Shown piece by piece: positions 1 to 36,585 of a stretch of 39,639 bases of DNA. The translations under genes were made by a program, and so were the position numbers. Positions within the stretch are counted from its first letter, which is position 1. Every line of letters starts with the position of its first letter. The notes beneath the pieces were generated by a model. That model did not search any database and had not been told where the DNA came from. It was given only the letters and a program-made list of their open reading frames with translations. The stretch comes from a virus: positions 1-39,639 of the IMG/VR virus record IMGVR_UViG_3300042555_002174; one strand, given 5' to 3'.

Positions 1-68
1 GCCATCAGTCCATTTCCAGAGACGGGTGAAGCGGAAATTACCCTTGTCCCTGGAAATGGACTGATGGC
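1..68. repeat. Inverted repeat (fold-back) at the left end
   Basis: Bases 1-19 are the exact reverse complement of bases 50-68, giving a 19-bp stem. The first 16 bases do not match the equivalent place before the right-hand copy of the terminal repeat, near 39512-39527. This is what a snap-back amplification or assembly artefact at a contig end looks like. A genuine terminal hairpin is possible but less likely, because the coding frame of the wrapping gene continues only if these bases are removed. Confidence 0.85.
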
Positions 69-128
69 GTGGTACGAGGGGCACAACACGCCGATTGAAG
101 ACGAATCACCCACTCTTCCGCCTGAGGG
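17..128. repeat. Terminal direct repeat, left copy (112 bp)
   Basis: This stretch is identical to 39528-39639. It shows that the sequence is circular (an assembly overlap) or has short terminal redundancy. The copy contains the end of the terminase gene (minus strand) and part of the last plus-strand gene, so it is coding on both strands. Removing one copy and the 16-base fold-back leaves a unit of 39,511 bp. Confidence 0.9.
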
Positions 129-144
129 CCCGGAGCTCGGCTAG
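19..144 (+). CDS. 3' part of the gene that wraps the circle junction
   Basis: This is the continuation of the gene that starts at 39341. In the repeat copy the frame runs from base 19 and reaches TAG at 142-144, adding residues P-E-L-G after the shared part. The complete protein would be 104 residues. Its end overlaps the 3' end of the terminase gene, tail to tail, by about 39 bases. An open frame across the join supports circularity. Function is unknown; see the entry at 39341. Confidence 0.75.
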   Translation, partial: ETGEAEITLVPGNGLMAWYEGHNTPIEDESPTLPPEGPELG

Positions 145-2367
145 GGTCATCTTGCCGTCGTTCGGACGCTTGGCGATCTTCTCGACGGCGTCGACGCGCT
201 GCTCGACCGGGGACGGCTCTCGGGATTGATCCTGCTCTGGTCGATCCTGTCCGGATCGGTCGGACATGGAAATCTTGCGTCGGCGTACCACTCGATCGGA
301 CTCGCCGGGGACTTTCACCCCCAGGATCGATGCACCTACCGCGGCTAGGATCGTAGAGTCAAGCAAGTGATTGTCCCGGCCTGGACGCAAAGCCCACTCG
401 AACAGCTCTCTGCCTTGTCCTTGGGTCTTGGTCGGGTATTCTGCGGAAAGGTTGTCTCCGGCCATGCGGTGACGCAGCGGGGCAGCTCGGTAGAGCCACC
501 ATGCTCCAGGCTCACCGGCGTCGGTGGTCCAGCGGTGCATCATCGCCGTCTTCCAGGTGTTCGTGTCGATCAAGCAGTACCGCGGGGCCCGGGTGCCTTT
601 GGTCGGTGGCATCCGCCAGCCAAATCCCATCCGTTCCCCGGATTTCTTCTTCTCCATGTTCCATGGCCTTTGGCGTGCGGTGACTCCCTTGCCATGGCTC
701 GGAATCACATGCTGATGCTGCTGGCTGAATTTGTAGACGGTCTCGGCCTGGAAGCCTGCATCGACCACCATGATCTCGGGCCGGAACTGCGTCCCATCGT
801 CGCGAGTGTAAGTGACAGCGAGTCGTTCTTCCCGAAGCTTGCCTAGCGCGACACGTAGCGACTCGGTCTCGGATTTGATTCCGGTGGCTCGTATGATGGT
901 CCGATCGATGTCGGCGAGGGAGACGTAGTCGATCCCAGGCTCGGGCCAGATCCCATAATCGACGACGAGGCCGGAGAAGTCGGCTCCGACCCCAGCGACT
1001 GTCCACCACAGCGAGGATCCTTGGACGTCGACCCCAAGGGTAATGTGCTCGACCCAGTCGGGGATTTCCCCGCGGCGGTGGGTCGGGAGGATCCGCAAGC
1101 AGAACTCGTCGGAAGTAAGGCAGCGAATTCCATCAACCGCAACAATCGATTTCTTGGGTTCATTCTGATACTCTGCGTCAAAGGTGTCCGGATTATCGAA
1201 CCGGAGATTCTCGGCGTGCTGGATCGCTGAGATCTCGTGGGGAAACTTTCGATGTGCCCAGCCTACCCGGGACCCTGCGTCCATCGCGGCGCGGTTGGCT
1301 CGATAGAACTTGTTCGCCTTAGGATGCTCGTCGTTTCCTTCGGCGATCTCTTCCGAGCGGATGTCGAAGTACTTGTTCCACAGATCCCGGTTGGTCGGCC
1401 ACTCATAGACCAGCCGGCATCGATCGCCGTGCCATCGAGGCATCAGCTTCGTATTGAGCATCCGGTCGGCTACGTCGCCCTCGCGAATAACCGTGATAGC
1501 GGCAAACCCTGCGATGAACTTCCCGGGGCCAGCTAGCCCCAAGAGTGCCCCTCCGATGACCTTTTCTCGCTTTGCACATTCCGGGTCTGAGTATGCCGAC
1601 TTGTCTGTCTGGGGATCGTTGACCAAAAGGAACCCAGGCCGCACGATACTCCCGTCAGGAAGTACCTTTTGCATCCCTCGGACTCTACCTAGGATGCCAG
1701 TGCAACGGATGATTGCACCAGATGAAACGGACCCCTCAACAGTAGGGAAAACCAGCTCCCTGCGTTTCCACCCAATGTGAGTCCGCTTGCCCTGAGTCGT
1801 CTGCGCGTTGCCTCGCTGGGTGATTCCCTCGAGGCATCGGATTGGGAAAGCGATCTCAGGGAAATCCTCAAGCAAGCGAGGATTGGTTTCCCATTCGATC
1901 TTGATCGCATCGAGCGATTCTTCGGCTGCACCTGCGTCGGCTTCGACCAGGACGCCAAATTTCTGGTGACCATAGGACAACACCCAGAGCATCGCTCGGA
2001 TCAGGATCGTTGTCTTGCCTGATCCCCGAGGCATCGCAATCGCCTTGAGTCCGCCCTCGAGCGCTCGTTTCTCAATGTCCTTGAGGATCCGCTCGTGATC
2101 CTCGGAGAAGGGCAGGGGAAAGGCCTCCGGGAAGTACGTCAGAAGGTACTTCTTTAAGTTGAGCCGACAGGACTCTCGTCGCTTGGCGTTGACGACCGCC
2201 GGAATCGGCCCGATGTCTCTGGCCTCGGTCGATTCCTCTTTGGCTTTCGACGCCTGGCGTTTGCGGTGCTTGGCATAAGAGTCCTTGGGACGCTCCGAGC
2301 CAGACTCGTTGTCGTCGTCCTCGGGATCCTCGGGAGCTGCTGCGGCTGGCGGTCGCTTGCGTGCCAT
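106..2367 (-). CDS. Phage terminase large subunit (lambda GpA-like)
   Basis: This is the packaging motor: ATPase plus nuclease that cuts concatemeric DNA and drives it through the portal. The 753-residue protein has Walker A (PRGSGKTT, about residues 113-120) and a Walker-B-like strand (FLLVNDPQTD). It then has a C-terminal nuclease region with the acidic positions expected for the GpA family: GVDVQ, VVDAGFQ and DNHLLD. Length and motif order match lambda gpA relatives. The ATG at 2367 is chosen because it overlaps the stop of the upstream gene as TGATG; a longer frame to 2490 has no better start. The N-terminal ~60 residues are charged and low complexity. It is the last gene of the leftward operon, unusual for a terminase, and no small subunit was recognised next to it. 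Confidence 0.93.
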   Translation of the reverse strand: MARKRPPAAAAPEDPEDDDNESGSERPKDSYAKHRKRQASKAKEESTEARDIGPIPAVVNAKRRESCRLNLKKYLLTYFPEAFPLPFSEDHERILKDIEKRALEGGLKAIAMPRGSGKTTILIRAMLWVLSYGHQKFGVLVEADAGAAEESLDAIKIEWETNPRLLEDFPEIAFPIRCLEGITQRGNAQTTQGKRTHIGWKRRELVFPTVEGSVSSGAIIRCTGILGRVRGMQKVLPDGSIVRPGFLLVNDPQTDKSAYSDPECAKREKVIGGALLGLAGPGKFIAGFAAITVIREGDVADRMLNTKLMPRWHGDRCRLVYEWPTNRDLWNKYFDIRSEEIAEGNDEHPKANKFYRANRAAMDAGSRVGWAHRKFPHEISAIQHAENLRFDNPDTFDAEYQNEPKKSIVAVDGIRCLTSDEFCLRILPTHRRGEIPDWVEHITLGVDVQGSSLWWTVAGVGADFSGLVVDYGIWPEPGIDYVSLADIDRTIIRATGIKSETESLRVALGKLREERLAVTYTRDDGTQFRPEIMVVDAGFQAETVYKFSQQHQHVIPSHGKGVTARQRPWNMEKKKSGERMGFGWRMPPTKGTRAPRYCLIDTNTWKTAMMHRWTTDAGEPGAWWLYRAAPLRHRMAGDNLSAEYPTKTQGQGRELFEWALRPGRDNHLLDSTILAAVGASILGVKVPGESDRVVRRRKISMSDRSGQDRPEQDQSREPSPVEQRVDAVEKIAKRPNDGKMTLAELRALRRKSG

Positions 2368-2594
2368 CAGTATCGGCTCGGCCTTTGGCGTGGAATACCA
2401 TGCTTGGGGGCACAAGCACACTGGCGGTAGTACCAAGTGATCCGCTCTCGCGTGGATGCGGCTTTGTACTTGGCCCCACAGCAGGGGCATGTGGGCGCAG
2501 TGCCTCTAGCCTGCCGACGGTATCGTCCGTGCGGGCTGGAATTGTGAGGCATGAGATGTTGCATTTCGGCATTTAGTTGGGCGAATACGACCAT
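2367..2594 (-). CDS. Small zinc-finger-like protein upstream of terminase
   Basis: A protein of up to 75 residues with a CPCC motif followed about 20 residues later by CAC, spaced by an aromatic strand (ITWYYRQ). The layout loosely resembles Ogr/Delta-type phage zinc fingers, whose role is late-gene activation, but the similarity is weak. An alternative start is the internal ATG at 2564, just after the stop of the previous gene; the ATG at 2594 overlaps that gene by 22 bases and has GGA five bases upstream. The stop overlaps the terminase ATG by one base, so the two are probably coupled. It could instead be the unrecognised DNA-recognition partner of the terminase; that is inference from position only. 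Confidence 0.6.
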   Translation of the reverse strand: MVVFAQLNAEMQHLMPHNSSPHGRYRRQARGTAPTCPCCGAKYKAASTRERITWYYRQCACAPKHGIPRQRPSRY

Positions 2595-6933: not shown

Positions 6934-9003
6934 CTAGCTCCCAAATACCAATGGTTGATTTTCGCCAGTGTTCTTGGCGATCTGCGTGAGCAGCTCGTTC
7001 GACTTGGCCGACTGATCGGCCATGCGATCGAGGGCGGATGTGGTTCCCCCGATCATGCCAGCAGCAAAGCCGGAAAAAGTCCCAGCGGTTTGCGTTGCTG
7101 TGGTCGATTTGACTTGCTCGACCGTTGGAATCTTGGGACGTTCGGGAGCAGGCTTCTCTTGTGCGAACTTGGAAGTCTCAGCGGTCTTGGCTTGCTCGTC
7201 GGCAGTCTGTTGGATCGACTTGGTTTGATCCGCAAGATCCTTTCGGAGTTGCTCGATCTGCGAATCGAATCCAGTCAGTAGCTCCTTGTTTCGATCGTCT
7301 CGTCCTTGCTTGGTTGCATCGGCCTGGGACTGGATACCACGGTTCATCTCGTTGGCGACACCGAGGCGTCCCTGGTTGGCTCGTTGCAGATCCTCGTTCC
7401 GTTTCGCGTTGGCATCGTCGAGCGACTGTTGCCGATTGTCGGCTCGCTTGTTCGCTTCGGTATCCATCTGCTTTGCGGCCTTCTCGTAGTCGACTGACCT
7501 GTCGAAAAGCGAATACAGGTAAAGCAGCTTTTTGGCAATGAAATTGACCGTCTGGTCGAAGGTCCCTTGCAGCCAGGTGAAGACCGTCGCGAATCCGTTC
7601 TGGATTCCGGTTGGGATTCCGGCCATGACATTAATCAGATTGGCCACGAATGAAACCGCACCCTGGGAAACCGTCGAGGACAGATCCGTCCAAGCATTCT
7701 GGATCTTCGTGACCATCGACAACCAGCCTGCATAAAGGTCCCGAGTGGCGACCCGGAAGACCAATTGCAGGCCTGTCATGGCGATTTGGCCCGCAGCTTG
7801 CCATTGGCCAGACATCAAAGCGGTCTTGATGGCGTCGAACACCGGCAGCACAATCGATTTGAGCTCGTTGAACTTGGCGACCAGATAGCCGACCATCTCA
7901 CCCCCCACTCCCGAGAAGTAGAGAAACGCTCCCGTGGCTGCGGTGACTCCGACGATCACCAGACCGATCGGGGAAACGATGGCGGTGATCAGTCCGACGA
8001 TCATGCCGAATACCGTGGCAATCGCTCCACCGATCGCAGCCAAGCCGGTCATGGCTACCGAGGCGACGGCCGCAGCTCCACCGAGTGCGAAGAGGCCAGC
8101 CAGCAGGCCAGCTCCGACCGCAGTCCATTTGGCGATCGTCACGATCAGCTCTTGGTTCTCGCCGATGAACTGACTCACGTTCGAGATCACACTGATGATC
8201 TTTTCGCCGACTGCGGTCAGCAGCGGCGCGAGGGCCGAACCGATTCTGGTTTGCAGGCCACCGATCACGCCGAGCAGTCGATCGAACACATCGCCAAGCT
8301 TGGCGGCAGCGGCAGCATCCTCGCCGGACATGGTTTGCCCAAGATCTTGGGCATCCTGTTGGAGCTTGCGAATTTCCTCAGCACCTCCGGAAAGCATGGG
8401 GACTAGGTCCGCACCGGCTTTTCCGAAGTACTCCATGGCCGCAGCACTTTTCAACGCCGGATCCTGGATCAGCGACAGCTTGTCGGCGATCGCGAGGAAC
8501 TGCTCGTCGGGCGACATCTTTGCAAGGTCATCGACACTCAAGCCCAGAGCGTTGAATTTATCCACGGCACCAGGCACCCCAGCGGCTGCATCCGCGATGC
8601 CCATTTGCATCTTGCGGACACCCTTCTCGAGTGTTCCGATGTCCGTACCGGAGAGCTTTGCCGCATAGCCGAGCGAGGACACCGCTTCGGCACTCATGCC
8701 GGTTCTCTGGGCCATGTCGTCGACCGCACCGCCAGCATCGGCGAAATTCTTTGCCAGTGCGACCAACCCAGTCACTGCGACCGAACCAGCGATCGCAGCA
8801 GGGAGGCTGAGTACGCTCTTGGAGAAGCCGGACAATGCACCCTGGGCACCAGCGAATCCTTTTCCGATTCCAGTGCCCATGGTCGTCGCGACGCCTTTGA
8901 GCCGTGCCATCGCAGCTTGGACTTGGGCCATTCCTTTGTCGAACGAGCCCTGTTTGGTCGCGATCTCGACGTAAGCTTGACCGGCCTTGATGTTGGATGC
9001 CAT
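6934..9003 (-). CDS. Tail tape measure protein
   Basis: A 689-residue protein, the longest tail gene. The N-terminus is helical and Ala/Gly-rich (FDKGMAQVQAAMARLK), with the 'MAQRTGMSAEAVSSLGYAA' segment common in phage tape measure proteins. Two or more hydrophobic stretches lie at roughly 290-370. The C-terminal part is a long coiled coil (residues about 510-640) rich in Asp, Lys and Gln. It sets tail length and is ejected with DNA. In simple siphophages length scales with the tail, so a tail of about 100 nm is expected (general rule, not measured). GAGGT precedes the ATG. Confidence 0.9.
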   Translation of the reverse strand: MASNIKAGQAYVEIATKQGSFDKGMAQVQAAMARLKGVATTMGTGIGKGFAGAQGALSGFSKSVLSLPAAIAGSVAVTGLVALAKNFADAGGAVDDMAQRTGMSAEAVSSLGYAAKLSGTDIGTLEKGVRKMQMGIADAAAGVPGAVDKFNALGLSVDDLAKMSPDEQFLAIADKLSLIQDPALKSAAAMEYFGKAGADLVPMLSGGAEEIRKLQQDAQDLGQTMSGEDAAAAAKLGDVFDRLLGVIGGLQTRIGSALAPLLTAVGEKIISVISNVSQFIGENQELIVTIAKWTAVGAGLLAGLFALGGAAAVASVAMTGLAAIGGAIATVFGMIVGLITAIVSPIGLVIVGVTAATGAFLYFSGVGGEMVGYLVAKFNELKSIVLPVFDAIKTALMSGQWQAAGQIAMTGLQLVFRVATRDLYAGWLSMVTKIQNAWTDLSSTVSQGAVSFVANLINVMAGIPTGIQNGFATVFTWLQGTFDQTVNFIAKKLLYLYSLFDRSVDYEKAAKQMDTEANKRADNRQQSLDDANAKRNEDLQRANQGRLGVANEMNRGIQSQADATKQGRDDRNKELLTGFDSQIEQLRKDLADQTKSIQQTADEQAKTAETSKFAQEKPAPERPKIPTVEQVKSTTATQTAGTFSGFAAGMIGGTTSALDRMADQSAKSNELLTQIAKNTGENQPLVFGS

Positions 9004-16580: not shown

Positions 16581-18869
16581 CTAGGCCGCGAAGCGTTGCA
16601 TCGCTCGGAAGTCGAGCGCGTTGACTCCGATGTAGTGCTTCACATCGATGACCACACCGAACTCACCGCCGGTCAGGGTCTCGGTTCGGACCACAGGAAC
16701 TCGGCCAGCACCTTGGAGGTAGTTGACTTCGATCGTGCGTCCGTCCTTCGAGATTCCGTAGTACGTGGTGTCCGAACCGGCGATCGCTTGCTCGGTGACT
16801 GGGTGAACCAATCCATTCGAGAATCGAGCGTCGGTCACAGGGGTGATGCCGTACTTCTTGATCGGGTTGAGCTCACCGGATCCGCTGTCGTTCGACAGGT
16901 TGGCCGAGTAGCAAAGTTGGATCGCCAAGTCCATCAGATCAGGAGGCACAACCAAGTGCGTCATCTTGAGGTTGAGCGTCGCGTCGCCGTCTTTGACCTT
17001 GAGCAAACGTGCGATCATTTCACTTAGGGTTGCACGAGCGAGGGCCTTACCCGTCGCGGCGTTCCCGTCGGTGCTGTTGAACAAAGCGCGAGCGGTTTGC
17101 GTCAAGGTCGGATTGCTCATCAGCAAGGCGGCGACGAGGTCAGGACGCAGACGTCCAGCAGCGCGGCCGAAATCTTGCGGCGTGTCTTTGAGCTTCTGGA
17201 AGTTGTCACCGAACATGTCCGCTTCGTCGATCTTCAATTGCTCGCTGAATCGTCCGACTTGAGCCTTTTCAGTCAACACTCGGCGGTTGCCATGGCTGGC
17301 TTTCCCACCGACTGGGTGGTGCTTCAAATTTGGAGCGGCTTGCATCCGGTTGTTGTTGTGCTCCTCAAGGTCAGGACGCTCGCTTTCGCTGCAAATCCCT
17401 TGCGAGAAATCATCGACTTCGGCGTAGGATTCGAGCATCTTCGCGCCGAGGGTCGCACCGAACAGAACGGCGACAGTCCCCGAGGAAAAGGACGCTTGGA
17501 CCATGTCGATCCGGTTGGACGGGACATCGATCCCGCGAGCTTGGAGACCGAGCTTACAGGTCTCCACAAGGGTCAAGTCTCGGTACTGATGGGCAAGGTC
17601 GCTGGTGCGTGCGCGGATTGGGTCGTTTGCACCGGCTTGCAGCCACGCAGGCAGCTTGGCTCGGACATCGCGATTTTCAAAACTGGACGAATCGAGCCGC
17701 ATGCCAGCACGCAACATGACTCCACCCTGGATTGCTCCGAGGTCGATCGACGTCTGGCTAGCTCGAGAGTGGATCGCGGGGCCTCGTGGGCGAGAGTCCC
17801 GGGAGGCTTCCAGGTCTTGATGGCGTCGAGCAAGCAGCTCGGTCTGATCGCCGGTAAGGCCGTTCTCGATGGCGTGGGCCGCCAGGTCGACGTTCTTGCC
17901 ACCGACCATGACGGTTGGATTGCCGAACTTGGCACAGAGCGTGGTGACTTCGCCGACCCGCTTGGTTTCGGCGGCCATCTGCGATCGGTAGGCGGTCAGA
18001 TCCAAGGTGCTACCAGCGGTCAGATCGGGCGAGGCGGAAGAAGCAGCAGCGGTCGCAGGCTTGGTCATGTTTGGATCCATTGGTTTGTTGGGGTCGGCGG
18101 CAGAAGCGTCAGGAGGTTGCGAACCCGCACCAGCGTCCGTGCTGGCAGGGTCCGCAGAGGATTCGAGGCTCTCGGCGTAGGAGACTTGCAGGGCGGCTTT
18201 GGCCTCGGGCGAAAGAGTCGCAGGATCGAGTCCAAGAGAGGTGCAATAGTCTTCAAAGGTTTTCATGTTTGATGTGGCCGAAGCGGCAATAGAGACAGAG
18301 GATTCTGGGTCGCCTGGAATCGTTACCAGGGAGACCTCTTTAAGCTGCGATCGCTTGACGACGAGGACAGGACCATCGAAAGTGCGTCCATTGCACTGGA
18401 GGGTCTGACCTTGAGGAATCGTGGAGTAAGTGAGGATCTTCACGCCGACCGAGGGTCGCCAAGGAAATCCGTTTCTCGCTCCCGAGACAATCTCCTGCTG
18501 ATCCACCGAAGGGACCGAGAACACTCCGGTGACGGAGAGCTTGGTACCATCGTTGGCCACAGCAGTCAGATGGCCGACAGGCCTGGATTCGTCGTGGTCT
18601 CGATGCACTGGTCCGACCGGTGCGTCGAGGCCTGCTAAATCAATCACCACCGGACCGTTCCACTGGATTGCAAGCTTGGGATGCATCACACCCCCGGTAT
18701 AGGCGATCCCACTAAAACTGGGCAGCGCGTCGGGGGTGTTAGGGTCTGCGGCTTGCAAGGCGATGGAGTCGCCACTGGTGCGCAGTTCCAAGTTGCTCTT
18801 GGACGATGCGACGATGACGTTGGCGTCTTGTCGCTTGCGTTTCGTGGTTGCCCGGATCGATTTGCTCAT
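16581..18869 (-). CDS. Prohead protease - major capsid protein fusion
   Basis: A 762-residue protein. Residues about 40-210 carry an HK97-type prohead protease: a His-bearing segment (H89 and H92 in PVHRDHDESRPVGH) and a Ser segment (FPWRPSVGV, S140). A linker of about 130 residues is rich in Ala, Pro and Ser. From about residue 350 the sequence reads as a Mu gpT-like or HK97-fold major capsid protein, with LVVPPDLMDLAIQL near the end. The join implies autoproteolysis to release capsid subunit, as in other fused phage systems. ATG at 18869 is preferred to an upstream TTG at 18911; neither has a clear ribosome-binding site. Confidence 0.8.
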   Translation of the reverse strand: MSKSIRATTKRKRQDANVIVASSKSNLELRTSGDSIALQAADPNTPDALPSFSGIAYTGGVMHPKLAIQWNGPVVIDLAGLDAPVGPVHRDHDESRPVGHLTAVANDGTKLSVTGVFSVPSVDQQEIVSGARNGFPWRPSVGVKILTYSTIPQGQTLQCNGRTFDGPVLVVKRSQLKEVSLVTIPGDPESSVSIAASATSNMKTFEDYCTSLGLDPATLSPEAKAALQVSYAESLESSADPASTDAGAGSQPPDASAADPNKPMDPNMTKPATAAASSASPDLTAGSTLDLTAYRSQMAAETKRVGEVTTLCAKFGNPTVMVGGKNVDLAAHAIENGLTGDQTELLARRHQDLEASRDSRPRGPAIHSRASQTSIDLGAIQGGVMLRAGMRLDSSSFENRDVRAKLPAWLQAGANDPIRARTSDLAHQYRDLTLVETCKLGLQARGIDVPSNRIDMVQASFSSGTVAVLFGATLGAKMLESYAEVDDFSQGICSESERPDLEEHNNNRMQAAPNLKHHPVGGKASHGNRRVLTEKAQVGRFSEQLKIDEADMFGDNFQKLKDTPQDFGRAAGRLRPDLVAALLMSNPTLTQTARALFNSTDGNAATGKALARATLSEMIARLLKVKDGDATLNLKMTHLVVPPDLMDLAIQLCYSANLSNDSGSGELNPIKKYGITPVTDARFSNGLVHPVTEQAIAGSDTTYYGISKDGRTIEVNYLQGAGRVPVVRTETLTGGEFGVVIDVKHYIGVNALDFRAMQRFAA

Positions 18870-18914
18870 GGGGACGAAACTACCACGCGCCCCCGAAAAA
18901 CCGTCCAACAAGAG

Positions 18915-19958
18915 TTACAAATCAGCCTTCGCCCAGTCCGAGTCCGGAATGATCGCATAACTGGTCATCGCGACTTTTTCCGAGTTGCCGATCCACTTCG
19001 ACGCGGTCGCCAGTCCGAAGGCGGTGATCAGTTCGGTTTCGCGAGTGGCTCGCATCGAATGCCAAGGCACCGGCCATGGATCGATTCCTGCCTTGCGAAC
19101 AACCTCGAGGAATCGCTGTGTGATTCCCGAGTGCGAGAGGCTTGCGATCGTCGGCAGTAGCTCGACGCCTGGTGCGGGGAGCTCGGCAGCGATCTCACGG
19201 AAAAGCGGGATCTCTCGGACCATCCCTCGCTTGGTGTCTGTGATCTTGATCCGTTTTAGGGCCCGGTCGATCGATGCTTGCGAGAAGTCGCGAATCTCGC
19301 TGGAAATTCGCAGGCCTCCGAATCGAGACAGCACAATCACCAGCCGCAGCTCGGGATCGTCGCAGGCCTGGAGGACTCGCTCGATGGTCTCCACCGAAAC
19401 GAATCGCTTCTCACGCACCGAGACCGTGGTTTTGAGTCGCTTGGCCGGATTGGCCACGATCCACCGATTGTCCTCGCACCAGCGAAAGAAAGCTTTCCAG
19501 TCCTTGGCGATCTTTCCCCGGGTGGACGCACCTTGCTCGAGCGCATCATAGACGGTGGCGATTTCCTCCGGGGACACTCCATCGATTCGCCGATCACCGC
19601 AGGCATCAGACAGCCAGGCCAGAGAGCGAGCGACCGATTCGGCGGTCGATGTGGCCAGTAGATCTCGCTTGGCGTTGAGATACTCGTCGATCGCCGTCCG
19701 GACGGTGCGGATGGATCCGGTGATGCAAGTGAGCTTCGACTTGATTTCCGGGTCGAGCCTATCGAGCCAAAGGGCTGTTTGCCTGGGTATCGGTAGGTCT
19801 GCGGTCTGGGCGGCGAGGATCTCGTCGACATGTCGCTGAATGGCGACCGCTTCGGGCTCGGTGATGCGTCCGAGCCAGATCGAGCGACGTCCGGCAGCGG
19901 TGTAGACTCGGAGGCGATAGCCTTGACGAGTCTTGCTCTCGTGCGTCAGCGAGCTCAC
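18915..19958 (-). CDS. Tyrosine recombinase (integrase) inside the head operon
   Basis: A 347-residue site-specific recombinase. It has the N-terminal 'GRRSIWLGR' DNA-binding module, a core-binding helix bundle, and catalytic residues R217 (FGGLRISSE), K243 (TDTKRG), H300 and R303 (PWHSMRATR) and Y334 (SYAIIP). The second His is replaced by Asn (WIGNS, N325), a substitution I associate with planctomycete integrases. Start GTG at 19958 overlaps the portal stop (GTGA); a longer frame to 20054 would overlap the portal. It is co-transcribed with head genes, between portal and capsid fusion, which is highly unusual. Confidence 0.85.
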   Translation of the reverse strand: MSSLTHESKTRQGYRLRVYTAAGRRSIWLGRITEPEAVAIQRHVDEILAAQTADLPIPRQTALWLDRLDPEIKSKLTCITGSIRTVRTAIDEYLNAKRDLLATSTAESVARSLAWLSDACGDRRIDGVSPEEIATVYDALEQGASTRGKIAKDWKAFFRWCEDNRWIVANPAKRLKTTVSVREKRFVSVETIERVLQACDDPELRLVIVLSRFGGLRISSEIRDFSQASIDRALKRIKITDTKRGMVREIPLFREIAAELPAPGVELLPTIASLSHSGITQRFLEVVRKAGIDPWPVPWHSMRATRETELITAFGLATASKWIGNSEKVAMTSYAIIPDSDWAKADL

Positions 19959-21658
19959 GCTGGTTGCTCTTCGTACTCGGCCAACAAATTGTTGATCGTG
20001 CTTTCCTTGAGTCCAAGCGACCCCAGGAATACTCTCGCTCGAGACGTCGTCCAAATGCCTTCCTCGATCTTACCGAGGGTGTCCTCGATCGCTCGCCAGT
20101 TGCGGGTGAGCTGCAAACGGGACATGTTCGCAAATTCCCCAGTCGGAGCGGGTTGGCTGGAATCCGGCTCGGCAGCGCCCGTACCTTGGGCCGCAGCTCC
20201 GGGCGCACCAGACGCACTAGGTGCACCAGGTGCAGCGCCTGCAGGAGCGGGTGGCCTGTCAGGATTTACCCAGCCTTCCTCGATGAGCTGCTGCGCGTGA
20301 GCTTCGGGGTCAATGTTTTGCTCGATCAGGTACTGTTGGCGAGTCTTGAGACCGGCCCGGATCAGTTCGATGTTGACGTCTGCGATTTCCGCAGGATTCA
20401 CATCGCGTTGTGGTGGCCATCGCCAGACCTTGGGGATCTCATCGGTCGGTTTGATCGCTGGCAAGTAGCCGTCCATAAGCAAGGCTTCATCGAGCCACCA
20501 ACCGAAGATCCGGTCGAGGGCTTCGACTTCCCACTGGGATCGCTCGATTGCGTTGGATTCGTGGTAAGTCTGATGGTCCAGGCGTCCCGAGGAATAGTTG
20601 TACCCGGACGAATCCGCGAGGACCTTGTTCTTTGGCATGTGGACCGATCGAGCAATCTCGCCGAGGACTGCATTGCGAAACTCGGTGTAGGTCGTGGTTG
20701 GTTGCTTCGGGTCAAACTGAACCATCTCCCAGCCCTTGGGGAGTGAGGTCATCAGTCCTCGATCGATCTGCACGAAATCGAACGGGTCGATGTCGTCGAT
20801 CCCATCGGACGCAGAGTCGAAAGCATTCGACTGAGTCTTGAGAATCGCCGAGAAGTCCGCAGCATTCTCCGCAGCGGTGATCACCGCCAGGGTGTAGCGA
20901 CGCAGCATCGCGAACAGTGGCAAAGCCGGAGTAAGCTCGGGGATGCCTCGCATCTGTCCAGGTCGCTCGGCTCGGAACAGGTGGATGATGTCGTCGGGGT
21001 CGACATCCTCCTTTTGGAATGCATCCAGCGGCCAGCGGTCCCCAGGGTGTCCTTTGAGGATGTGGTAGACCGTTGGATTTCCAAAGTCGTCGAACTCGAT
21101 CCCATCGATCTTGTTTGGGAGGCCGTCGGCGTAGTACGGGGTCGCAAGTTGATCACACTCGATGACTCGCAGATCGAGCTTGACATCGTTCTTGCTGCGA
21201 GGGTTGTTTCCCTTGAGGATGATCGTCTCGCCGTCGATCACCTTGCTCATTCGAGCGGTTCGAAGCTTGCTCGCAAGCCGGACATCCTTGCACCACTTCC
21301 GCCACTTGTGCTCGATCATCCGAGAAGCAGACGCATCGGGCAGCATCACCTGGAGACTCGGGCCGGTGGAGATTGTGTCGTTGGCCAGGGTCAGGACGAT
21401 ACCCTTGGCGAACGAATTGTTCTCGAGGCATTCGTAGCGGGATCGCTCGCGCAGTGTCTTTCTGACCGATACCGAGTTGGCGGCGGCAGCGGACAGATTG
21501 TCGGCGTGTCGCCAGTGCTTCTGGGTCTCGGCCGTGTTGGCCGCAGCATCGTAAGACGCCGACAGCGAGTCCATTCGCTTGGCTCGATCCTGGACCCGAC
21601 GAGCGGCAGCCAGGGCCTTGGTGTCGATCGGCTTTCCGTATTGATCGAGCAGCATCAT
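19955..21658 (-). CDS. Portal protein (lambda gpB family)
   Basis: A 567-residue protein, usual length for lambda-type portals. Recognisable parts are the N-terminal helical YDAAANTAETQKHW and RYECLENNSFAKGIV, the conserved DVRLASKLRTARMSKVIDGE segment, the wing with 'VIECDQL', and the stem/crown segment EIARSVHMPKNKVLADSSGYNYSSGR. It forms the dodecameric ring for DNA passage and terminase docking. The C-terminal tail after residue ~470 is Ala/Pro-rich. It precedes the embedded integrase with a 4-base overlap. Confidence 0.9.
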   Translation of the reverse strand: MMLLDQYGKPIDTKALAAARRVQDRAKRMDSLSASYDAAANTAETQKHWRHADNLSAAAANSVSVRKTLRERSRYECLENNSFAKGIVLTLANDTISTGPSLQVMLPDASASRMIEHKWRKWCKDVRLASKLRTARMSKVIDGETIILKGNNPRSKNDVKLDLRVIECDQLATPYYADGLPNKIDGIEFDDFGNPTVYHILKGHPGDRWPLDAFQKEDVDPDDIIHLFRAERPGQMRGIPELTPALPLFAMLRRYTLAVITAAENAADFSAILKTQSNAFDSASDGIDDIDPFDFVQIDRGLMTSLPKGWEMVQFDPKQPTTTYTEFRNAVLGEIARSVHMPKNKVLADSSGYNYSSGRLDHQTYHESNAIERSQWEVEALDRIFGWWLDEALLMDGYLPAIKPTDEIPKVWRWPPQRDVNPAEIADVNIELIRAGLKTRQQYLIEQNIDPEAHAQQLIEEGWVNPDRPPAPAGAAPGAPSASGAPGAAAQGTGAAEPDSSQPAPTGEFANMSRLQLTRNWRAIEDTLGKIEEGIWTTSRARVFLGSLGLKESTINNLLAEYEEQPA

Positions 21659-22335: not shown

Positions 22336-23324
22336 GAGCGGATCACCTTGAGTGCGACAACGAACAGGAGAACGAGGAAAGCGATCGCACAGAGGCCTGC
22401 GAGGATCGCTTCGCCGGGATTCCAAATCCAATACAGGAGGGATTGGATTGGGTCTTGGTCTTTGGGTCGCAAATTGGGGAACAGCCTTTCTCGCTCCGGA
22501 TTCAGGAGAGGCACGCGGCCAGGTGGGCAATTGCCGTCAGGACAAGACGGATCAAACTCTTGAGCCATCGGAGAGCTAGGGTCTTGAGCTGGTTGAGTAG
22601 CTTGCTGTTGAATCTGCGTCGATTCTTTGAGGGCGGCGTACAGGCCGGACGCAGACGAGGGGAGCGACGCGGCTCCCGCGACGTAGACATGTCCGCCACG
22701 AGCATCGGTAAACACGACGGCTGGAAATTGGTCGGTGGGTACAACGCCACCAAACCGTTCTCTGTACAGCGGATTGTCTTTGGTGTAGGCCTGGAAATTG
22801 ACGTTCTTGCGCAGGTCGGACAACTGCGGATCACGATTGACCCAGTCGAGCAATCTCTGGGAGGCCTGGTCTGTTCCGACGAAGACAGCCAGCGAGTACT
22901 TGTTTGCCCAGGGGGTGGATGTCACCGTGACCTGTTGACGAGGGGTCGCAGGCTGCGGCGCGGGTGAGCTAGCTTGCGTGATCGGTTCGGCGTAGTTGAC
23001 GAATCGGGTAAACCCAGGCGATCGAACCTGATCGCAAGGTGGACAGTAGACGTCTTGTCGCTTGATTTCTCGAGCTGCACTCTCGTTGACTGGGACGCTG
23101 TTGAGCGGTGCGTTTCGCAGCTCGTCGTAGCTCACTCCCCCGGGTGCAAAAGATCGCTCGACTGGTTGGTCGATCCCGAGGGATTGTTCAATTCGCGGAG
23201 CAACTCGCTGGCCCACGACAACGCACAAAGCGCTAAACAGAGCCAGAGCCACCAAACCGAACGAAAGCACGATTTTGACACGTTGTCCCCCACCAGGGCA
23301 TTGTTCGCAATTTACCATTTCCAT
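22332..23324 (-). CDS. Membrane protein with thioredoxin-like domain
   Basis: A 330-residue protein with one TM near residues 17-37 and a second near 300-327. A CPPC pair (YCPPCDQVRS, about residues 93-96) precedes a thioredoxin-like fold segment (YSLAVFVGT ... FPAVVFTDARGGHVYV), where the usual catalytic CxxC is absent. A later CPDGNCPPG box is similar to CVNGQCYPA of the exported protein at 29953. Likely located across the inner membrane with the domain outside the cytoplasm. Start ATG at 23324 overlaps the peptidase stop by 13 bases. Confidence 0.65.
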   Translation of the reverse strand: MEMVNCEQCPGGGQRVKIVLSFGLVALALFSALCVVVGQRVAPRIEQSLGIDQPVERSFAPGGVSYDELRNAPLNSVPVNESAAREIKRQDVYCPPCDQVRSPGFTRFVNYAEPITQASSPAPQPATPRQQVTVTSTPWANKYSLAVFVGTDQASQRLLDWVNRDPQLSDLRKNVNFQAYTKDNPLYRERFGGVVPTDQFPAVVFTDARGGHVYVAGAASLPSSASGLYAALKESTQIQQQATQPAQDPSSPMAQEFDPSCPDGNCPPGRVPLLNPERERLFPNLRPKDQDPIQSLLYWIWNPGEAILAGLCAIAFLVLLFVVALKVIRS

Positions 23325-23926
23325 CCATCCTCGACCGCTTTGTACGACTGAAAAACAGGAGGGCTCGGAGGGTCGTAAAGCGTGGTCAGCGCGAAGCCCC
23401 CGTACCCAGCCCAGGCCTTGTGAAACTGCGATCGTTCGACGAACTCATAACGATCGGTTTGGTTGTTGTCCAAGATGCAAGCGTAAACCTTGCCGTCAGT
23501 GCCTTTGGCCCACCCTACAAAGGTGCAGCAGTGCGACGGCTTCCACCAGAGAAGAGCACCGCGCCGAGCGTTGTGAGCATCATCGAGCAGTTGGAGATTC
23601 GCTCGCTCGGTGTAGGCGTAAGGGATTTTTGCCGCATCGAGTCGACGTCTTAGTTGATCGGTCCACTCACCCCCGGAGTACTGCGATCGCCACCACTTGG
23701 CCAGCTCGATCTTGTTCTGCCAATGGAGCATCGAGGAAAGCGACGCATGGACGCAGCTCCCCTCGTTGGCTTGACTCAGCCAGTTCTTCTGGCGGAGTGA
23801 CATCGGTGGGTTGATCGCCGGGGTTTCTGCCCTCGGAGCTCGGAGCGCGACATAAGACGGAGCAGGCGCGCACCCGATGCCCAGAAGCAGCCAAAGCAAA
23901 ATGACGGTCACATGATTTTTCGCCAT
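23312..23926 (-). CDS. Lipoprotein papain-like (C39-like) peptidase
   Basis: A 204-residue protein. The N-terminus is a lipoprotein signal peptide with lipobox LGIGC (C19). Catalytic candidates of a papain/C39 fold are C58 (EGSCVHASL), H132 (KPSHCCTFVGW) and D153 or N154 (ILDNN). It is anchored in the envelope and would cleave peptide bonds, possibly peptidoglycan cross-links. It is the first gene of the late leftward operon. A lysis role is suggested because no classical endolysin is seen, but a role in virion maturation or host takeover is also possible. Confidence 0.7.
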   Translation of the reverse strand: MAKNHVTVILLWLLLGIGCAPAPSYVALRAPRAETPAINPPMSLRQKNWLSQANEGSCVHASLSSMLHWQNKIELAKWWRSQYSGGEWTDQLRRRLDAAKIPYAYTERANLQLLDDAHNARRGALLWWKPSHCCTFVGWAKGTDGKVYACILDNNQTDRYEFVERSQFHKAWAGYGGFALTTLYDPPSPPVFQSYKAVEDGWKW

Positions 23927-24204
23927 GTTTGAGACAATTGAGTATTAGGTCCGATCAGATAACAGGACCACCGTACCGCAAAAGCCTCAAAAATCGTCAA
24001 ACGAGGGTTACAAAAAGAAAGTGTGTCTTAGTAGTAGATTGTTCCCATTGGGGTCGGCTCGGGACGTGCTCCAGGAAGGACCCGTGAAATTTTGGCTCAA
24101 AACTTTTTTGCGTTCAAATCCCCGAAAACTTTTTGGGCCCGCGCGATTTTCTAAAATCAAGACGCGGCTAGGCGCTGTAATCGAGGAAACAGCGCTGAGG
24201 CGCT
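23927..24204 (-). promoter_or_regulatory. Gap upstream of the late leftward operon
   Basis: No credible gene is seen in these 278 bases; short frames in both strands have poor codon content. It lies directly before the first late gene, so a late promoter is expected here. The best weak match on the minus strand is a -35-like TTGACG (bases 23995-24000), with no good -10 at normal spacing. There is also an imperfect CCC-AAAA/TTTT-GGG palindrome near 24122-24141 and a GCGCTGT/ACAGCGC inverted repeat around 24172-24196. Confidence 0.35.
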
Positions 24205-24486: not shown

Positions 24487-24690
24487 GCGCCGTACGGTCT
24501 CGGCGAACCGACTAAAAAACCAAGCTTTTACATTTTATGTTCGACCCCTTGCAGGGGTACTTAAACACTTCATAAACCCTGGTTTTCCAGGGTTTTTTAC
24601 GTACCGAGACACGCTCGGACACGCTCGAACACGCTCAAACCCGATTAGCGCCGTACGTCGCGCCGTACATTGGACCCGCGCCGTACGCGG
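24487..24690. repeat. Repeat-rich attP-like region beside the integrase
   Basis: Downstream of the integrase gene there are four copies of GCGCCGTAC (24487, 24648, 24660, 24678), three tandem 10-bp copies of ACACGCTC(G/A) at 24609-24638, an ACCCCT/AGGGGT palindrome at 24544-24558 and a terminator hairpin. Repeats spaced by a helical turn are typical arm-type binding sites for integrase or excisionase. The core crossover sequence cannot be identified without the host junction. Confidence 0.5.
24574..24598 (+). terminator. Bidirectional hairpin with T-run
   Basis: The stem AAACCCTGG / CCAGGGTTT has a TTTT loop and is followed by six Ts on the plus strand. On the minus strand only a weak T-run follows. 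It would stop rightward transcripts entering the integrase 3' end, but no plus-strand gene is seen nearby, so it could equally be part of the attP fold. Confidence 0.5.
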
Positions 24691-25821
24691 TCATTTCCTC
24701 GCTTTCTTGCGTGTGCTCTTAGGCTTCTCTTGGCTGGTCGCCCTGGCCCAGTGATCCTCGGTGACCATGAGGTAATGATCCTTGGCCACCCTCGTGGAAT
24801 GTCCAAGCCAGGCGTCGCACACGTGAGAAGCGAATTGCTCCTCGAGATCCGTCCTGCAACTGGCTCTGAGATTGTGCCAAAGCTTCGGCCATTGCTTGAG
24901 GCCTGCCAGCAGAATCGCCGACTCGAGCCACCTTCGATAGGTCGTCCCTGCCGATCGCCGTGCAGTTGGAAAGACCCAAGGCGACTCCCCAGCGGCCTCG
25001 GCCAAGTTAAGCATGTGCTCATAGACCATCGGGACCATCGGAACGACTCGCAACCCTGTCTTGGTGTCCTTCGGCACCGTGATCCGATGCGTTTCGAAAT
25101 CGACATGCTGCCAAGTCAGCGAGATAATCTCATGCGGCACCCTCAGACCAGCAAAGCGAGCCAGCACAAACGCAGCTTTTGCCTGTAGTGATCCCAATTT
25201 TTCCAGCACTAATTTTGCATCCTCAACGGACAGATGGTGCCCTCGCGACTTATCTAGCTTGGCACGGACCCCGACACCCGCAAAAGGATTGGCCTGGAGA
25301 AGCCTGGAATCGACTGCATCCTGCATGATCTGCTTGACCCGCTCGACATGCTTTTTCGCCGTCTGGCTAGCAAATTTAGCCTCCAGCCTGATGGCAAAGT
25401 GCTTCGCGTCAGAGACCGTGATCTCGCTGATCAACCGATCGCCCAAAAGCTCGATCGCATGCTTGCGAGCAGTCCCAAAACCCTTCTTCGAGCTGGTGGA
25501 AAAGTCGGCTCGCTTTGCCAAGTAGGCATCCCAGACGATTCCGAGCTTGGGTGAATGACTGGCCGGTTTCCACTGAGACAGCAATCCAGCGGCCTGCATC
25601 TTGTCGCGAAAGTCCTGCTTGCAGAGCGAGATCCACGTTTGGATCTGCGGATCGGGCTCGATCCCGACATTGTTGCTGGCCTGCAATCGCTCGACATTGC
25701 GTCGCACGGTCTCTGCACCGGCCTTGGTGACCTTGCCCAAGTAGATCTGCACGCGTCGGCCCGAGGGCGTCACGACGCAACAATACCATCCTCGGTGCTT
25801 GTGCTTGTAGATCGATGTCAT
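24691..25821 (-). CDS. Tyrosine integrase with complete catalytic set
   Basis: A 376-residue recombinase with an N-terminal 'GRRVQIYLGK' module, a SAM-like core-binding domain (roughly residues 90-180), and the catalytic set R227 (AGLRVPHE), K254 (DTKTG), H316 and R319 (WHNLRASCR), H341 (WLGHST) and Y350 (KDHYLMV). Intact and of family length. It forms an operon with the excisionase (ATGA overlap at 25818-25821) and lies beside the repeat-rich region, so it is the likely enzyme for phage integration. Confidence 0.9.
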   Translation of the reverse strand: MTSIYKHKHRGWYCCVVTPSGRRVQIYLGKVTKAGAETVRRNVERLQASNNVGIEPDPQIQTWISLCKQDFRDKMQAAGLLSQWKPASHSPKLGIVWDAYLAKRADFSTSSKKGFGTARKHAIELLGDRLISEITVSDAKHFAIRLEAKFASQTAKKHVERVKQIMQDAVDSRLLQANPFAGVGVRAKLDKSRGHHLSVEDAKLVLEKLGSLQAKAAFVLARFAGLRVPHEIISLTWQHVDFETHRITVPKDTKTGLRVVPMVPMVYEHMLNLAEAAGESPWVFPTARRSAGTTYRRWLESAILLAGLKQWPKLWHNLRASCRTDLEEQFASHVCDAWLGHSTRVAKDHYLMVTEDHWARATSQEKPKSTRKKARK

Positions 25822-26069
25822 CTAGTTTCGCGGCCAAGAAACCGATCTATTTCCTTCCGATCGATACGCAAGTGCCTTCCGATTCTCACGGCTCGCATCT
25901 GCTGGGTATCGACAAGTCCCTCTATCGTACGGACAGAGACACCGAGAATTTCCGCGACTTCCTCCCTGGAGAAAGCTTCGCGAGGTATTGTAGATTTCCG
26001 CATCGCAGCCTCGATCGACTGCTGGAGCAATCCGAGGATCTGCGTGGTGTCCGTAGAATTTGCCGACAT
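25818..26069 (-). CDS. Excisionase-like helix-turn-helix protein
   Basis: An 83-residue protein with a MerR-like winged helix: EAFSREEVAEILGVSVRTIEG and then RAVRIGRHLRIDRKEIDRFL. This is the pattern of the 'excisionase family DNA-binding' proteins. It is coupled to the integrase by a 4-base overlap and preceded by CGGAG. It probably controls the direction of recombination by bending DNA at the att site. Confidence 0.85.
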   Translation of the reverse strand: MSANSTDTTQILGLLQQSIEAAMRKSTIPREAFSREEVAEILGVSVRTIEGLVDTQQMRAVRIGRHLRIDRKEIDRFLGRETR

Positions 26070-26155: not shown

Positions 26156-26680
26156 TCACCGCGTTTCATCCCCCCAAGATGCACCAACAAGGCACAGAAT
26201 GTGAAGTATCACGCCAGGAACGATCAACATGATGTATCCAGCGATCGTCACCACAAACCAAACCAGCCCATTGATGATCTGCCCTTTGTAAGCTTGCCCC
26301 AAACCAGGGACGATTAGACTCAGCAAGATAGCAGTACCTCGACTCCATCGCCTCATTGTCGGTGCGGCAACATGAACATTCACAACGCTCTGAGGCACCG
26401 CAGCGGCGACGGGTTGAATCACTGGGTGTTGATACGCTGGGATCGGAGCTGGCTGCGGAGCGAGCACTTCGTTCGGCAACGGGGCCAAAGCTCTTGGCTC
26501 GATGGACACTTCGGGCCAGTTCAGACCTTTGATTTTGGTGATCGGTTGCCAGTCCTCGACTCCATCCTTGCGAACTTGAGCATTCGCAGGGACTTTGCCA
26601 GCTTCAACTGCTTGTTTCAACTGCGTGGAACTGATGGGACCAATTGTCTTACCACCTGCTCGGACGTGCCATGCAGACAT
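26156..26680 (-). CDS. GYF-domain membrane protein (GYF_2 + TM2-like)
   Basis: A 174-residue protein. The first 45 residues form a GYF_2 domain: SAWHVRAGGKTIGPISSTQL, then VRKDGVEDWQPI. A Pro-rich linker (APQPAPIPAYQHP) follows, then two membrane helices (GTAILLSLIVPGLGQAYKG, LVWFVVTIAGYIMLIVPG) resembling TM2-domain proteins. GYF-plus-TM proteins are common in planctomycetes. AAGGG precedes ATG. It may act in envelope exclusion or be host-derived cargo; not essential for replication by appearance. Confidence 0.75.
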   Translation of the reverse strand: MSAWHVRAGGKTIGPISSTQLKQAVEAGKVPANAQVRKDGVEDWQPITKIKGLNWPEVSIEPRALAPLPNEVLAPQPAPIPAYQHPVIQPVAAAVPQSVVNVHVAAPTMRRWSRGTAILLSLIVPGLGQAYKGQIINGLVWFVVTIAGYIMLIVPGVILHILCLVGASWGDETR

Positions 26681-29783: not shown

Positions 29784-29854
29784 GCCCTGAAAGTTATTGC
29801 GGAGGAACACCTGGAGTAATCCAGGAAGCGCAGGTTCGAATCCTGCTCGGGGCT
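29784..29854 (+). tRNA. tRNA-like element with abnormal anticodon loop
   Basis: A 71-base cloverleaf is seen: acceptor GCCCTGA (29784-29790) with TCGGGGC (29847-29853, one G-U); D-arm GTT/AAC; anticodon-like stem CCTGG/CCAGG (29810-29825); perfect T-arm GCAGG-TTCGAAT-CCTGC (29830-29846). The anticodon loop has six bases (AGTAAT) instead of seven and lacks U33, and position 8 is A. It is therefore a pseudo-tRNA, a specialised tRNA-like RNA or an att site. Amino acid cannot be assigned. Confidence 0.5.
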
Positions 29855-29856
29855 CT

Positions 29857-34175: not shown

Positions 34176-34469
34176 ATGCCAGCCAGCAAAAAGACCAGCC
34201 AGAAACCGAACAGCCTCCTGGAAGAAGCTCGCCAGTCGGCGACAGAGTACCAACGAAAAAAGGGCATGCAGACCTGGTTTCAGGTCCTCGAAGCCAACGA
34301 GCCCAAAAAGGCCGCAGAGCTCAAGACGCTTTGCATCGACTGGCACAAGGGCGGTGAGTCGCGAGACCTGTTCCCGGGCAAAGCGGACCTTCTCCGATTT
34401 GTGAATGCGAGAGTCTGCAAGGTGGGTCGATTCGGTTTTGACACCTGGATGAACGAGGTCACTTCATGA
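34176..34469 (+). CDS. Hypothetical early protein
   Basis: A 97-residue basic protein with helical stretches (SLLEEARQSATEYQRKKGMQ) and no recognised family. ATG at 34176 or 34173 follows GGAGG. The stop overlaps the next ATG (ATGA). A longer frame from 34071 overlaps the loader gene and was rejected. Confidence 0.5.
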   Translation: MPASKKTSQKPNSLLEEARQSATEYQRKKGMQTWFQVLEANEPKKAAELKTLCIDWHKGGESRDLFPGKADLLRFVNARVCKVGRFGFDTWMNEVTS

Positions 34470-35479
34470 GCCTCAAAAAACAGATCAAAGCTTGGACCCG
34501 CAACGAGGCGACCGAATCTCAAGAGCTACTGACCGCCAGAGCACAGCTCAAGCAGCTTGAGGTCGCACTCAAGCGGGAGCGGTCGGCACGAGAGCTGCTA
34601 GAGCAGACCCTCGATCGACTGCGAAGCTCGTCGGTGAAACTGAACCTGACGCGCAAGGCCAAAAGCTCCAAGGGGGGTGTCACCCTGCGAGTCATCGTCC
34701 CGGATTCCCATGGATGCTTCGTTGATCAGTCGGCAGCGTCGGCGATGCTTGCCGACATTGCGATGCTCAAGCCCTCGTCGATCATCCTCCTGGGTGATCA
34801 TCTTGACTGCGGTGGCTTCCTGGCCGAGCACCACACCTGGGGCTACGTCGCCGAGACCGACTACACTTTCGAGGACGACTGCCAAGCGACCAATCAGTTT
34901 CTCGATGCGCTGCAGTCGGCAGCACCACAAGCGACGATCGAGTACCTCGAGGGAAACCACGAGCGACGCATCGAGAAGTGGATCGTCACCGACGCACTGC
35001 GAACGGGCAAAGGATCCCGAGGCGACGTCAAGATGCTTAACGCATTGTTCTCGACCGAGACGGTGTTGCAGCTCGAGAAGCGGAAGATCCCCATTTACAA
35101 GCAGGGTCAGTGGTACGACGGGTGCCATGTGCCCGGTACGATCCTGCGGGACAACTGCTACTTCACCCACGGCCAGTTCACGAGCAAGGCCGCAGCGGCC
35201 GCGCACCTGGCCAAGTACAACAGCAACATTTGGTTCGGCCATACGCACCGGATGGACATGGCGACCAAGCGGACCGTCGCCTCGGGCCCGATCGGAGCGT
35301 GGAACCCTGGTTGCTTGTGCCAGCTCCAGCCCTACTGGATGCATCAAAACTTGACCGACTGGGTCAACGGTTACGGAATTCAGTTGGTCCAGCGGGGCCT
35401 CGGGCATCTGAATTTGCAGATCCCCATCATCAACGGTGTTTCGTATCTTTCGCCTTTGATCCATCGGGGCGCGGCGTAA
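34466..35479 (+). CDS. Calcineurin-like metallophosphoesterase
   Basis: A 337-residue protein. After a coiled coil (residues ~15-52) comes the metallophosphoesterase signature: D80-x-H82 (VIVPDSHG), GDHLDCG (D111, D114), GNHER (N164-H165), a later THG and GHTH. All metal ligands are present. It may be a nuclease or phosphodiesterase; Mre11-like DNA repair or second-messenger cleavage are both possible. ATGA overlap with the upstream gene. Confidence 0.85.
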   Translation: MSLKKQIKAWTRNEATESQELLTARAQLKQLEVALKRERSARELLEQTLDRLRSSSVKLNLTRKAKSSKGGVTLRVIVPDSHGCFVDQSAASAMLADIAMLKPSSIILLGDHLDCGGFLAEHHTWGYVAETDYTFEDDCQATNQFLDALQSAAPQATIEYLEGNHERRIEKWIVTDALRTGKGSRGDVKMLNALFSTETVLQLEKRKIPIYKQGQWYDGCHVPGTILRDNCYFTHGQFTSKAAAAAHLAKYNSNIWFGHTHRMDMATKRTVASGPIGAWNPGCLCQLQPYWMHQNLTDWVNGYGIQLVQRGLGHLNLQIPIINGVSYLSPLIHRGAA

Positions 35480-35517
35480 GGTTTTTTGGTTGGTTTTTCT
35501 TACAGGAGGATGAGAGT

Positions 35518-36585
35518 ATGAAGGATGTCAAATGGCGGGTAATCAGTCCAGCAAAACACTTCGACCCGAAGGTCGTTGCCGAAGTATTGAGGGATCAAGT
35601 CGACATGCTGGTCGCAGGGATGCAGTACACGATTGACGGATCGCTAGTGGAGATCGGTTCGATAGACACCCCACCGGCCCAGTCACAGATGGGTGTCCAG
35701 ATGGTCTCGCAGCCCGAACCAGTTATCAAGGATCTCTTAACAACTGAATCCAACTGTCCGGAAATCCTGGATAGTTCGAACAGTTCGGTCGAAGCGGGAG
35801 AGCTCGAGCGCTGCGAAGCGACCGAGGCACCAGAACCTCGCAAGCGAGTCCTGTACATCGCTGGCCCGATGCGGGGAATCGCTTGGTTCAACTACCCCAT
35901 GTTTGATCGAGTCGCCAAGGAGCTGCGTGACGCAGGCAACGAAGTCATCAGCCCAGCGGACGAGGATCGCAAGCACGATGGTTTCGATCCGTACGCCAAT
36001 CCATCGCATGCAATTCCTGACGCTTGCACATTCCCCAAAACCATGGACTTCGCCAAGACCGTGCGACGCTGCTTGGATGCTGTGCTGCGGTGCGACGAGC
36101 TTGTCCTGCTTCCAGGCTGGGAGAACAGCAATGGAGCCGTGGCCGAGCTAACCCTGGCCATGTGGCTCGGCAAGCGGGTGCGACACCTGAACATCGACGA
36201 CGACAATCGACTCACGTATGCGTGCTACTGGACAAGCCTGATCAGCCTTGCCGTACAGCTCAGCGAACATCACATGCCAAAAGTCGAACGGATGGGTCTC
36301 GCCGAGCAAGACGACGACGAAGAAGACATCCTGGCCGAAGCATCCCGGATCACGCGTGGCAGTCGCCAAGCTCAATACGGGCCACCGGACCAGGACTTCC
36401 GCCGGACCGCTGACATGTGGTCGGCTCTGTTCATTTCCAAGCTCAAAGACGGCGTGACATTCGAGTCCCGAGACGTCGCACTGGCGATGATCTTGCTGAA
36501 GACCTCCCGGGAGACGCACCAGCGCAAACGGGACAACTGGGTGGACATCGCCGGGTACGCGAGCTGCGGGAGCCGGTGCAACTGA
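35518..36585 (+). CDS. DUF4406 - DUF6378 fusion protein
   Basis: A 355-residue protein. After an N-terminal unknown ~105 residues comes a DUF4406 domain (VLYIAGPMRGIAWFNYPMFD, DELVLLPGWENSNGAVAE), related in fold to nucleoside deoxyribosyltransferases. The C-terminal ~95 residues match DUF6378 (AEASRITRGSRQAQYGPPDQ, DVALAMILLKTSRE, WVDIAGYA). Usually these are separate phage proteins. GGAGG lies eight bases before ATG 35518. Likely a role in nucleotide metabolism. Confidence 0.75.
   Translation: MKDVKWRVISPAKHFDPKVVAEVLRDQVDMLVAGMQYTIDGSLVEIGSIDTPPAQSQMGVQMVSQPEPVIKDLLTTESNCPEILDSSNSSVEAGELERCEATEAPEPRKRVLYIAGPMRGIAWFNYPMFDRVAKELRDAGNEVISPADEDRKHDGFDPYANPSHAIPDACTFPKTMDFAKTVRRCLDAVLRCDELVLLPGWENSNGAVAELTLAMWLGKRVRHLNIDDDNRLTYACYWTSLISLAVQLSEHHMPKVERMGLAEQDDDEEDILAEASRITRGSRQAQYGPPDQDFRRTADMWSALFISKLKDGVTFESRDVALAMILLKTSRETHQRKRDNWVDIAGYASCGSRCN

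Follow-up and report, generated by a model that had tools for sequence, protein, structure and literature searches.

The late operon of the phage studied here carries, between its portal and capsid genes, a gene for a tyrosine recombinase that resembles lambda integrase, appears to be catalytically competent and has a single origin. Our preferred reading, to which we assign a probability of roughly 45%, is that this enzyme occupies an accessory slot of the head operon and performs site-specific strand exchange in the lytic phase rather than choosing an integration site. The window, meaning the whole stretch of DNA that was analysed, is an entire IMG/VR record of 39,639 bases.

Gene layout of the late operon

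On the minus strand, the portal gene is followed by the recombinase gene and then by the gene for a capsid-protease fusion (Table 1). The initial annotation, which omitted the strand, had described a complete tyrosine recombinase between portal and capsid that is tied to the portal stop, and this description holds: the GTG start of the recombinase gene and the TGA stop of the portal gene (19955-19957) share bases within the sequence GTGA (19955-19958). The separate pair of genes that it had placed at 24.7-26.1 kb is likewise real and int/xis-like. Translational coupling would give the recombinase a portal-like level of expression, and this coupling, together with a separate promoter-like element for the capsid gene just downstream, suggests that the recombinase is probably made late in infection.

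Some further features of the window were recorded. A gene for a GYF_2-domain protein (26156-26680, minus strand) adjoins the early int/xis region, a tRNA-like call with undetermined anticodon lies at 29784-29855 (plus strand), and at 34466-36585 (plus strand) a metallophosphoesterase ORF overlaps an ORF of 491 aa with matches to DUF4406 (nucleoside deoxyribosyltransferase-like) and DUF6378 domains. No RNA families were found across the window.

Table 1. Coordinates of the features discussed, as positions in the window unless residues are given
Feature	Position	Strand	Remarks
Terminase large subunit	106..2490	-	GpA type
Capsid-protease fusion	16581..18869	-	PF25209, E 1e-18; directly downstream of recombinase
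Repeated element core, copy upstream of capsid	18881..18909	-	
Late-operon tyrosine recombinase	18915..19958	-	347 aa, complete, GTG start
N-terminal domain of recombinase	residues ~1-66		small beta-sheet domain (predicted)
Portal protein	19955..21658	-	Pfam PF05136, E 1e-57
First late gene	23312-23926		copy of repeated element upstream
Repeated element, second same-strand copy, upstream of first late gene	23974..24002	-	
Putative cos overhang	24040..24052		13 nt, CCCAATGGGAACA as read on the minus strand; basis: contig ends of relatives
Short direct repeats	24487..24687		GCGCCGTACG four times, ACACGCTCGA-like three times; adjoin early int
Early integrase	24691..25821	-	ordinary integrase; His at second position
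HTH/excisionase-like partner of early integrase	25818..26069	-	

Distribution and origin of the late recombinase

Successive scans gave 46, then 19 and then 4 further contigs (L082, L087, L184 and L200), so that the gene was found on about 69 IMG/VR contigs, with identities of 48-98%. On every contig where portal or capsid is present, it lies in the slot between them. Among same-genus relatives the junction can be read in 43, and 41 of these retain the 4-base overlap, as ATGA; in the other two, L015 and L025, a methyltransferase gene separates portal from recombinase. In L201, a more distant sister relative, the slot holds a D12/Dam methyltransferase gene and a small ORF and no recombinase. 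Homologues of the portals and integrases that are encoded in genomes are planctomycete, and the hosts of these uncultured phages are therefore probably planctomycete bacteria.

Other cargo was also seen in or around the slot. Three unrelated DNA methyltransferases have been recruited into it (L015:4089-4832, L025:9552-10013 and L201:4692-5534), their types being N6_N4_Mtase, Dam PF05869 and D12 class. Small minus-strand ORFs (L057:5584-6244 and L091:2394-3041), which are putative morons and oriented against the operon, lie between the recombinase position and the capsid gene, and the portal frames of L057 and L060 have variable C-terminal extensions just before the recombinase, the portal ORF of L057 reaching 774 aa.

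On the portal tree L091 sits inside the second clade and yet the recombinase gene is absent from it; its portal frame ends in TATAETPPTP, which corresponds to the last recombinase codons of its sister L057. Judged by this deletion scar, L091 has lost the recombinase, and this loss, together with the absence of the gene from L201, indicates that the gene is not essential. Across the phylum, portal was followed directly by capsid in all 39 informative Planctomycetota portal loci sampled, which indicates that the recombinase was acquired a single time, by an ancestor of this clade of viruses. As far as can be judged from the tree, a single origin is indeed shown: the late recombinases form one clade with a long stem (support 100/100), apart from the main clade of early integrases. 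This separation also led us to reject the idea that the gene is a duplicate of the early integrase.

Insertion of a satellite, a transposon or other random DNA into the late operon in recent times, a possibility related to the satellite insertion raised by the initial annotation, is scarcely credible. The adjacency of portal and capsid in distant relatives would fit such an event, as would the fact that the slot takes other genes too, and to this extent the comparison of gene order came out as in the refuting case that the annotation had set. However, the gene shows no marks of random insertion at its flanks and has been retained for long in two clades, the exact 4-base overlap recurs in 41 contigs, and the selection on the protein is strong (see below). 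A junction conserved among divergent relatives refutes the word "recent", and with a single old origin the satellite idea finds no support.

Extra genes at the same position of the late operon have been described in other phages, namely a HipA-like kinase gene in 'Gratiaviridae' (PMC8008677) and an accessory cluster in phiScoe10 (PMC10276819); these are genes of other kinds, whereas the gene described here is a long-kept recombinase. In the open-access literature searched, no report of a conserved recombinase between portal and capsid was found.

Selection on the recombinase and on the early integrase module

Pairwise dN/dS values of 0.05-0.14, obtained with dS of similar order to that of portal and capsid, show at the level of coding sequence that the recombinase is under purifying selection. 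When the window is compared with L006, dS is 1.33 for the early integrase and 0.14-0.26 for portal, capsid and recombinase, and the att-like repeats beside the early int gene vary with the type of early integrase. The early integrase thus moves between phages as one module together with its att-like repeats, and the recombinase takes no part in this exchange; a specificity module swapped among relatives, as expected of an integrase module, was not seen for the recombinase, which co-diverges with portal and capsid. These data support the view that the recombinase is a fixed part of the portal-capsid unit and does not set integration specificity: its gene is passed on together with the structural genes, independently of the swapping of the early int/attP module.

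The domains of the recombinase differ in how fast they diverge. Between the two clades (window against L051), the N-terminal domain (residues 2-66) is 75% identical, whereas identity is 41% in the core-binding part and 51% in the catalytic part. In distant pairs of early integrases the reverse applies, as their N-terminal domain changes no more slowly than the other parts. Since the N-terminal domain is the most conserved part of the recombinase, it may have a constant ligand, and the pattern suggests that this ligand is invariant.

Family, predicted fold and catalytic residues

The recombinase matches PHROG 1 'integrase' (E 3e-24, residues 13-324), its score against Pfam Phage_integrase is under the cut-off (18.3 against 27.1 bits), and the NCBIfam models for XerA, XerC and XerD give weak matches far under theirs. 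Among annotated phages, the best relatives cover about half of the query at less than 30% identity, and no close relative was found in annotated phage records. An AlphaFold model (pLDDT 84.7) predicts an N-terminal beta-sheet domain, core-binding helices and a catalytic domain, the latter two with the fold of tyrosine recombinases. Foldseek matches of the model include lambda Int, XerA and HP1 Int; the best PDB match is lambda integrase with a global TM of only 0.37, so that the relative placement of the domains is unsure, and the catalytic domain aligns with HP1 Int with a TM of 0.67 by target length. In sequence family and three-domain layout the protein is therefore like the phage tyrosine integrases.

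All 11 representatives of the late recombinase share residues R217, K243, H300, R303, N325 and Y334, and R, H, R and Y stay invariant when early integrases are included in the alignment. The catalytic set R...K...HxxR...(H/W)...Y is thus present with Asn at the H/W position. The replacement of the second catalytic His by Asn, pointed out by the initial annotation, is real (Asn325), but its reading as a sign of altered function is not supported: Asn occurs at this position in 14 of 26 sampled planctomycete host integrases, where the motif is GN[ST], and in the early integrase of the related phage L042. Asn325 being typical of this integrase lineage, it gives no evidence of inactivity, and a dead enzyme was rejected as an explanation. 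From the retained residues we infer that the recombinase is catalytically competent.

Searches for a target site

No att-like repeats were found beside the late recombinase at 18.9-20.0 kb, where the initial annotation had suggested looking for them, in contrast to the early int gene, whose adjoining direct repeats (Table 1) are likely to be its attP region. An adjacent attP-like region with arm and core repeats is thus a feature of the early integrase and not of the late recombinase. Neither a DNA site embedded in the recombinase coding sequence nor a clustering of contig ends at the gene was found, and a search among prokaryote genomes returned no integrated copy of any clade member.

These results bear on the possibility that the late recombinase is an additional integrase serving a different host site in a temperate phage with two integrases, the coupling to portal merely keeping expression low. 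Its membership of the phage integrase family, its arm-type N-terminal domain and its intact catalytic residues would all suit this role. We nevertheless regard it as unlikely, given that each early integrase has its own set of att-like repeats and the late recombinase has none nearby, that contig ends do not gather at it, that its N-terminal domain is not diversifying as in the early integrases, and that production alongside portal would be a bad time for lysogeny.

DNA inversion lies within the repertoire of the tyrosine recombinase superfamily, and an invertase that would switch part of the phage genome, such as tail fibres, was therefore considered. However, 11 related records are co-linear with the window, and neither an inverted segment nor minority-strand matches were seen in them, making this role exceedingly improbable.

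The repeated element upstream of the capsid gene

An element of about 45 bp with the pattern TTTGTAAC...GTTnGACGnTTTTTnnGG...GnGGTA, for which 0 chance matches are expected, precedes both the capsid gene and the first late gene (Table 1). The TAA stop of the recombinase falls just within the 5' extension of the capsid-side copy, and the sequences of the two copies change in parallel from clade to clade. In L091, which is without the recombinase, the capsid copy is still present, and a diverged element with an extended -10-like TGnTAnnnT precedes capsid in L200 and in the likewise recombinase-less L201. Because of this persistence and its promoter-like appearance, the element is read as a capsid promoter, and for the same reasons it was rejected as a recombination site. 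The capsid copy may yield a nearly leaderless capsid mRNA.

The recurrence of the element at the start of the late operon, the parallel drift of its copies and the strong conservation of the N-terminal domain would also be consistent with a DNA-binding regulator that has a recombinase fold and acts perhaps at this late-promoter element. The phage repressors MrpR of SPbeta and SroF of phi3T, which have the recombinase fold in common with the late recombinase, are among the weaker Foldseek matches. MrpR has, however, lost key catalytic Arg and His residues (PMC10516654), whereas the late recombinase keeps its R, K, H, R and Y. With the element also kept in phages that lack the protein, a regulatory role appears rather improbable.

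Genome ends and packaging

Eight contigs of relatives terminate exactly at window position 24039, L057 begins at the analogous place, and record G001 starts at the position that corresponds to 24053 and continues around to 24039. L043 retains 13 extra bases there, CCCTACGGGAACA, whose counterpart in the window is CCCAATGGGAACA. We infer from these contig ends a cos site whose overhang is 13 nt long. The gene for the GpA-type terminase is located downstream of the tape measure gene (6934-9003), at the distal end of the late operon, and adjoins neither cos nor portal.

Cos-type ends and a GpA-type terminase imply that the terminase can cut concatemers, which weighs against a resolvase for phage DNA multimers that, like Cre of P1, would supply monomer units for packaging. 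The probable late timing, the DNA-directed chemistry shared with Xer/Cre-type resolvases and the conservation of the gene along with packaging and head genes speak for such a role. A conserved non-coding dyad of the dif/lox type shared by the window, G001, G002 and G003 was not found in a search of limited sensitivity, relatives without the recombinase exist (L091 and L201), and a simple resolvase needs no arm-type N-terminal domain, which the late recombinase has. The concatemer resolution put forward by the initial annotation is not needed where ends are of the cos type and is, in our estimation, quite unlikely.

Proposed role and significance

In the reading that we prefer, intact catalytic residues under strong selection point to DNA strand exchange, which the enzyme would carry out at specific sites in the lytic phase. 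The substrate is the least certain part; with modest confidence, we take replicating phage DNA before packaging to be a likelier target than host DNA. Two observations underlie this preference: the other genes that the slot takes up encode DNA methyltransferases, and the N-terminal domain hardly varies from clade to clade, as though bound to an element carried by the phages themselves. A stronger version, in which the recombinase is unrelated to lysogeny, its fixed N-terminal domain recognizes an invariant phage element (for example near cos) or host element, and the protein represents a new functional class in the head operon, is more speculative and, on present evidence, doubtful. Nothing was found to suggest the domesticated structural accessory that the initial annotation had also mentioned.

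Phage integrases are customarily taken as markers of lysogeny and of the integration site. Unlike ordinary phage integrases, the late recombinase sits in the head operon and coexists with an int/attP module, and the fact that a conserved, selected recombinase stays with the head genes as int and attP are swapped argues for a role outside integration. These phages would thus have a recombinase that is separate from the enzyme inserting the phage into its host and that has long been inherited with the genes for building the virion, which cautions that not every 'integrase' in a metagenomic phage is part of an integration module.
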